Assembly (NCBI GenBank): GCA_017999915.1
Contig: JAGNKX010000008.1
Coordinates: 186,001-250,000, forward strand
DNA length: 64,000 nt
From: Spirochaetota bacterium
GTDB taxonomy: Bacteria; Spirochaetota; UBA4802; UBA5550
Direction of reading: 5' to 3'
Shown: positions 6,836 to 6,973 of the stretch, piece after piece
Numbering within the stretch: the first letter of the stretch is position 1
Layout of the letters: each line of letters opens with the position of its first letter
Position numbers and translations under genes: made by a program
Notes under the pieces: model-generated
Database searches by the model: none
The model's input: the letters and a program-made list of their open reading frames with translations, nothing else
Told to the model about the DNA's origin: nothing

Positions 6836-6973
6836 TTGACTTGTTGCAAAACTCCGTCCTTGGAGTTTTGCAACGTGGCGAAATCGCGGGAGACCCGCGA
6901 TTTCTTGCATTCGCTGCGCGAATGCGCCTGCATCCAGCAGGCGCATTTGAGTTGTTTTGCAACAACTCAAATG
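6836..6973. repeat. Compact element of five consecutive perfect hairpins between hom and thrC
   Basis: Five inverted repeats follow one another: 6843-6874 (13-bp arms, 6-nt loop), 6880-6904 (11-bp arms, 3-nt loop), 6907-6925 (8-bp arms, 3-nt loop), 6921-6947 (11-bp arms, 5-nt loop) and 6944-6973 (13-bp arms, 4-nt loop). The third and fourth share bases, as do the fourth and fifth. The outer ends also form an inverted repeat: TTGACTTGTTGCAAAAC at 6836-6852 pairs with 6954-6970 with one mismatch. The element starts right after the thrC ribosome-binding site and ends at the hom stop codon. It looks like a small mobile palindromic repeat or a structured intercistronic RNA. Confidence 0.8.

Follow-up and report, generated by a model that had tools for sequence, protein, structure and literature searches.

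Conservation in ordinary MITEs is needed at the ends only. The nearest named relative of the element described here is the TD-2 RNA of Rfam (RF03162, clan CL00124), which is annotated as a candidate sRNA. A bacterial precedent for insertion of a MITE in an operon without disturbing that operon is Chunjie of Geobacter uraniireducens, as described in a review (PMC10969869). Among insertion sequences, IS5 insertions carry YTAR duplications (PMC10359306).

In this study, we analysed a window (the whole stretch of DNA under study) of 64,000 nt from a Spirochaetota bacterium (GCA_017999915.1, contig JAGNKX010000008.1, positions 186,001–250,000, forward strand). Between hom and thrC, both transcribed from the minus strand, lies a non-coding block that we interpret as a MITE-type non-autonomous DNA element inserted in the operon, with a probability of roughly 0.9. 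The genome of the window is designated G000 and that of its closest relative, a sister species with 88% identity in the hom protein, G012. The features of the locus are as follows.

5481–6815, minus strand: thrC (threonine synthase), with its ATG start at 6815 and, in the interval from there to the element, its native ribosome-binding site GGAGGAGAG.
6834–6836, no strand: left copy of the target-site duplication AAT, which flanks the element on either side in both G000 and G012 and occurs once in the empty site of G010.
6837–6969, no strand: putative five-hairpin non-autonomous mobile element with inverted ends, between hom and thrC, matched over its full length by covariance model R1 (64.9 bits).
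6837–6852, plus strand: left terminal inverted repeat TGACTTGTTGCAAAAC, with 38 occurrences in G000.
6843–6874, no strand: hairpin H1, perfect 13-bp stem (arms 6843–6855 and 6862–6874), loop GTCCTT.
6880–6904, no strand: hairpin H2, perfect 11-bp stem (arms 6880–6890 and 6894–6904).
6907–6925, no strand: hairpin H3, perfect 8-bp stem (arms 6907–6914 and 6918–6925).
6921–6947, no strand: hairpin H4, perfect 11-bp stem (arms 6921–6931 and 6937–6947), loop ATCCA.
6944–6973, no strand: hairpin H5, perfect 13-bp stem (arms 6944–6956 and 6961–6973), bearing the right end.
6954–6969, minus strand: right terminal inverted repeat TGAGTTGTTGCAAAAC, from the inverted-repeat match and the end-sequence search.
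6967–8280, minus strand, start approximate: hom (homoserine dehydrogenase), whose TGA stop at 6967–6969 coincides with the element's first three bases as read on the minus strand.
6970–6972, no strand: right copy of the target-site duplication AAT, paired with the copy at 6834–6836 in G000 and G012.

The original prediction, made from the letters of the window, described five perfect hairpins of 13, 11, 8, 11 and 13 bp that nearly touch and partly share bases, and 17-bp inverted repeats with one mismatch at the outer ends, and both descriptions agree with the sequence. The five stems tile 6836–6973, H3, H4 and H5 overlapping by a few bases, and the outer 16–17 bp repeat each other in inverted orientation with a single mismatch (20 nt, 90%). 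Folding of the block gave -80.4 kcal/mol compared with -43.7 +/- 4.1 in 200 shuffles (z = -8.9; 0/200 as good), and the transcribed (minus) strand gave z = -8.7. When the 64-kb window was randomised 20 times with a first-order Markov model, none of the copies had three or more 8-bp hairpins in a cluster. The five hairpins tile the 133 bp of the element, which has no room for a transposase gene.

Comparison with relatives revealed that the block is an insertion and not native operon sequence. A hom gene was found in 19 of the 20 genomes of the family, and the distance from the last aligned hom codon to thrC is 158 bp in G000 and G012 compared with 21–43 bp in the other 17 of the 19, including four congeners. 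Empty sites in relatives, which had been proposed as a check, are therefore present in 17 of 19 as tight junctions without the element. The empty site of G010 reads GATTCATTGAGCGCAGGAG, and the filled site, on the minus strand, reads GATTCCATT[TGAGTTG...AAGTCA]ATTGAGCGGAGGAG; from this comparison the element measures 133 bp (6837–6969) with a 3-bp target duplication, which reads ATT/ATT on the minus strand and AAT on the plus and is a single copy in G010. One extra junction base relative to G010 is left unexplained by a 3-bp duplication and counts against the MITE reading. The length (the class spans 50–500 bp), the terminal inverted repeats, the AAT/AAT duplication and the insertion polymorphism are those of a MITE.

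The borders had been said to coincide with the hom stop codon and the thrC ribosome-binding site, so that the operon was left undamaged. The ribosome-binding site is indeed intact; the stop codon, however, does not merely adjoin the element but is the element's own terminal TGA, the last few residues of the relatives' hom are lost, and the ATGA overlap of hom stop and thrC start seen in congeners such as G008, G009 and G010 has been replaced by a hairpin-filled spacer of about 150 nt. The insertion was nearly, rather than entirely, without damage. We propose that a transposase acting in trans would recognise the 16-bp inverted ends and insert the element, duplicating a 3-bp AWT target, and that this would have happened in the last hom codons, in the common ancestor of the G000 species and its sister species. 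The terminal TGA of the element would then have closed hom and the thrC ribosome-binding site would have been spared, so that the operon survived. Present in two sister species and absent from their congeners, the remodelled operon is a dated case.

The end sequence is repeated in the genome. With one mismatch allowed, GASTTGTTGCAAAAC occurs 38 times in G000 (1 control match), 67 times in G008, 62 times in G009 and 21 times in G012, the controls giving 0–2 matches and all copy numbers being lower bounds. Short elements of differing interior are bounded by the same ends, including ones of about 97 bp with one hairpin and about 107 bp with two hairpins. At loci with two such ends, the flanking 3-mers are identical in 14 out of 20 compared with 7.7 by permutation (p = 0.0015), and nearly all the matching 3-mers are AAT or ATT. 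The full sequence of the window element was found by genome search in a single copy per genome. A single-copy region conserved only as part of hom–thrC had been named as an argument against mobility, and this description holds for the full sequence but not for the element family. The single copy of the full sequence counts against the mobile-element reading as far as recent movement of this very element is concerned. Its inverted ends, its duplication, the empty sites, the repeated end sequence and the multi-copy homologous family are the grounds on which, of the two readings offered originally, the non-autonomous mobile element is the one we retain.

Other repeats were observed around these ends. 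At 55180–55283 of the window, a 105-bp stretch between GACTTGTTGCGAAGC and AAATTGCAACAAGTC has the same inverted ends but neither an evident hairpin interior nor a clear duplication. Another repeat of palindromic form, CCCCTCCCTTGATGGGAGGGG...TCCTCCCCCTTCAAGGGGGAGGA, lies at 48838–48917, with related copies at L018:7426 and L023:14412 in G000, and one copy of this type is nested within a short element with the same ends as the hom–thrC element in G008 (L128). Two loci of G009 (L118 and L129) combine these ends with another interior type, the palindrome GTCATTGCGAGCG...CTCGCAATGAC.

A weak match of the window element led to a second five-hairpin family, designated family A, whose members measure about 153 bp without their duplications. 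G000 carries 14 copies or more (those besides the query copy being 94–97% identical to it), and G010 gave at least 18 matches. The ends of family A are CAGTTTCCTGAAAAAC and similar, and its stems of 13, 11, 8, 8 and 13 bp follow the same order as those of the window element. Its duplications are mostly YTAR (CTAA, CTAG, TTAA and TTAG), with CTAT at least twice, and the left and right 4-mers match in 20 out of 35 copies compared with 10.9 by permutation. Model R1, built from family A alone without the window element, matched the element in full with E = 1.4e-17 and scarcely anything else in the 64 kb. Homology of the two types therefore extends to structure and to the loop motifs NTCCNT in H1 and ATCC in H4, whereas their ends and duplications differ.

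Of 393 Spirochaetota genomes, 26 had R1 matches, mostly full length. These 26 genomes fall in 19 genera, and among them are distant families whose stems have entirely different sequences. No match to the family was found in three Desulfuromonadales-type genomes or in the plasmid collection, the phage collection gave one short partial match only, and exact H1 patterns were absent from the viral contigs. In G164, a three-contig genome, single 23-bp palindromes CAGGCTGCTGAAAAAGCAGCCTG with matching CTAA or TTAG flanks occur at many loci (L225, L227, L235, L241, L251 and L252); in appearance they are five-hairpin elements of which H5 alone is left, and slippage from the left end to H5 may have caused the loss.

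An Rfam search of the window at the gathering threshold, which is 48.7 bits for TD-2, gave no match, and by Rfam's rule the window element falls outside TD-2. No TD-2 locus reached threshold in G000. Against members of the element family, the TD-2 model scored 46.6 and 41.3 bits for two G164 copies, on the opposite strand, and 31.6 bits for a family A copy of G000. Conversely, model R2 recognises most TD-2 loci, at about 18–50 bits. TD-2 is multi-copy in Treponemataceae-type genomes and relatives (L175–L204), sometimes in tandem (G074 C1:1455410, 1455547 and 1455707). A five-hairpin DNA family puts in question whether TD-2 is an RNA gene; judged by these matches, it may descend from a mobile DNA element and not be an sRNA.

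DDE_Tnp_1 (PF01609) is absent from G000. A PF01609 search of the genus revealed one IS4-like gene (G009, L141), at which one of the two ends is similar, and one IS701-like gene without such ends. The former locus (C69, 1015–2130) encodes an IS4-family transposase whose left end, AGTCTGTTGCAAAACTC, resembles that of the hom–thrC element and whose right end has diverged. Among the end matches listed for G008, G009 and G164, no two faced each other at a distance of 0.6–3 kb, and the end search of G164 found single-hairpin derivatives and no autonomous pair. The assemblies searched, in the case of G000 the matches listed, yielded no autonomous element bearing these ends; metagenome assemblies may lack the parent, or the parent may have been lost. 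The duplication motifs would fit an IS5-type transposase. An ANT duplication is known for the ISL2 group; IS701 also gives YTAR, so that IS5 is no more than a candidate.

The element may since have acquired a use. Between G000 and G012 it is identical at 130 of 141 positions, with changes at 3 of 112 stem positions, 5 of 21 loop positions and 3 elsewhere, while about 126 of 400 fourfold sites of hom and thrC differ, identity at these sites being 66% in hom and 71% in thrC. Stems are thus conserved relative to fourfold sites (p = 2e-12) and to the rest of the element (p = 1.4e-4), and loops resemble fourfold sites (p = 0.63), which hints that loops change at the neutral rate and stems have been under selection after insertion, being of use in their present place or at any rate constrained against decay. 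By comparison, in 14 dispersed copies private changes were not depleted in stems (19 in 107 stem columns and 11 in 43 others, p = 0.32). Adding to the mobile-element explanation, the same insertion might now be selected as hairpins in the hom–thrC transcript, or as DNA, that set expression; they could, for instance, shield the end of hom, block RNases or, with coupling lost, hold the thrC ribosome-binding site open; no terminator-like site was seen on the transcribed strand of the element. However, the contrast between hom–thrC and the dispersed copies reached only p = 0.075 and a single species pair was compared, so that selection here is no more than a lead; moreover, survivorship would give a similar picture, as only constrained or lucky insertions last so long. 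We hold domestication to be a tentative possibility, somewhat short of even odds. For the retention of the element, it is suggested only that its hairpins became useful or harmless in the hom–thrC mRNA.

Pairing across the family bears on whether the hairpins act as DNA or RNA. In alignment A1, 14 pairs changed on both sides compared with 5.3 +/- 1.6 when shuffled and at most 5 when slid, and the covariation score was 0.67 compared with 0.16 in A2 and 0.55 compared with 0.14 in A3; the pair counts of A2 and A3 lean to the model because both alignments were fitted to it, A1 being unfitted. An RNA-level structure is expected to tolerate G.U, not A.C, on the transcribed strand, and structured RNAs usually have clearly more G.U than the 2% seen in this family. 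Among 3410 pair cells there were 66 G.T and 92 A.C; the surplus of A.C (nominal p = 0.046, uncorrected for relatedness) would favour the opposite strand and is too small to weigh. As G.T is no commoner than A.C, the structure seems to be kept as DNA, and the palindromes are probably conserved at that level. The original alternative of a structured RNA tuning thrC relative to hom loses ground here, although the stems were conserved after insertion. Given that the internal hairpins keep their order, number and approximate length across the phylum, with compensatory change at nearly every pair, the interior does something, and by the lack of G.T tolerance its job is probably at the DNA level.

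Changes common to several of the 14 dispersed copies fell in 2 stem and 22 non-stem sequence-cells. Together with the private changes, this pattern indicates that copies drift after insertion and that the still-moving lineage has intact stems. In the MITE reading, the five-hairpin family spans the Spirochaetota with its stems held as perfect Watson-Crick palindromes in active lineages, and the hairpins would be needed as DNA, extruded or single-stranded, for mobilisation. Such a job would offer a direct way to test hairpin-dependent transposition. A bolder version, which we consider rather unlikely, is that of a phylum-wide mobile DNA family whose transposition needs a fixed set of five DNA hairpins, internal as well as terminal ones being selected as DNA structure, with the TD-2 'RNA' of treponemes a descendant and not an sRNA, and the hom–thrC copy exapted.

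Perfect stems might also be kept by mutation only, through hairpin-templated correction, without selection on structure. This would give strand-symmetric, nearly pure Watson-Crick pairing, as seen, but in dispersed copies stems take private changes at about the same rate as other positions, and at hom–thrC not one pair has changed on both sides between G000 and G012, making this account improbable. Far less probable is a REP/BIME-type palindrome array moved by a Y1 (RAYT/IS200-like) transposase. The hairpin-rich sequence, six Y1_Tnp matches in G000 and the short single-hairpin derivatives in G164 would fit it; however, Y1 transposases make no target duplication and matching duplications are present, no element ends lie beside the six Y1 genes of G000, and the size and five-hairpin unit are unlike REP or REPIN, so that Y1/RAYT mobilisation was rejected. 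Least credible of all is a native cis-acting structured RNA of hom–thrC (attenuator or riboswitch-like), to which the very stable fold on the transcribed strand and the position in the thrC leader would be suited, but which the empty sites in 17 of 19 relatives and the lack of an Rfam match in the window rule out, homologues at unrelated loci and the G.T count telling against it as well.

Compared with known systems, the element shares with IS5-type insertion sequences the target preferences to which the YTAR of family A and the AWT of the window end type conform, although the genomes searched yielded no transposase of this kind with ends that match. Like REP/BIME/REPIN sequences with RAYT, it is palindromic and extragenic, and its family is multi-copy; unlike them, it has target duplications, a five-hairpin unit and no Y1 link. 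TD-2 is likewise multi-copy in Spirochaetota and has H1-like and H2-like hairpins and TCC-type loops as in the element family, but it has three hairpins, which look like H1, H2 and an H4-like one joined by a linker, and it apparently lacks H3 and the end-bearing H5. The likeness to bacterial MITEs such as Chunjie is broad: they are short, non-coding and intergenic, have inverted ends and direct repeats, are moved in trans, can lie in an operon and give transcripts that form stem-loops. In this comparison, made by description, the window element differs in being tiled by five hairpins, in its phylum-wide covariation and in that no parent insertion sequence was found. The element itself is new and MITE-like; its unusual part is the phylum-wide five-hairpin architecture with DNA-type covariation.
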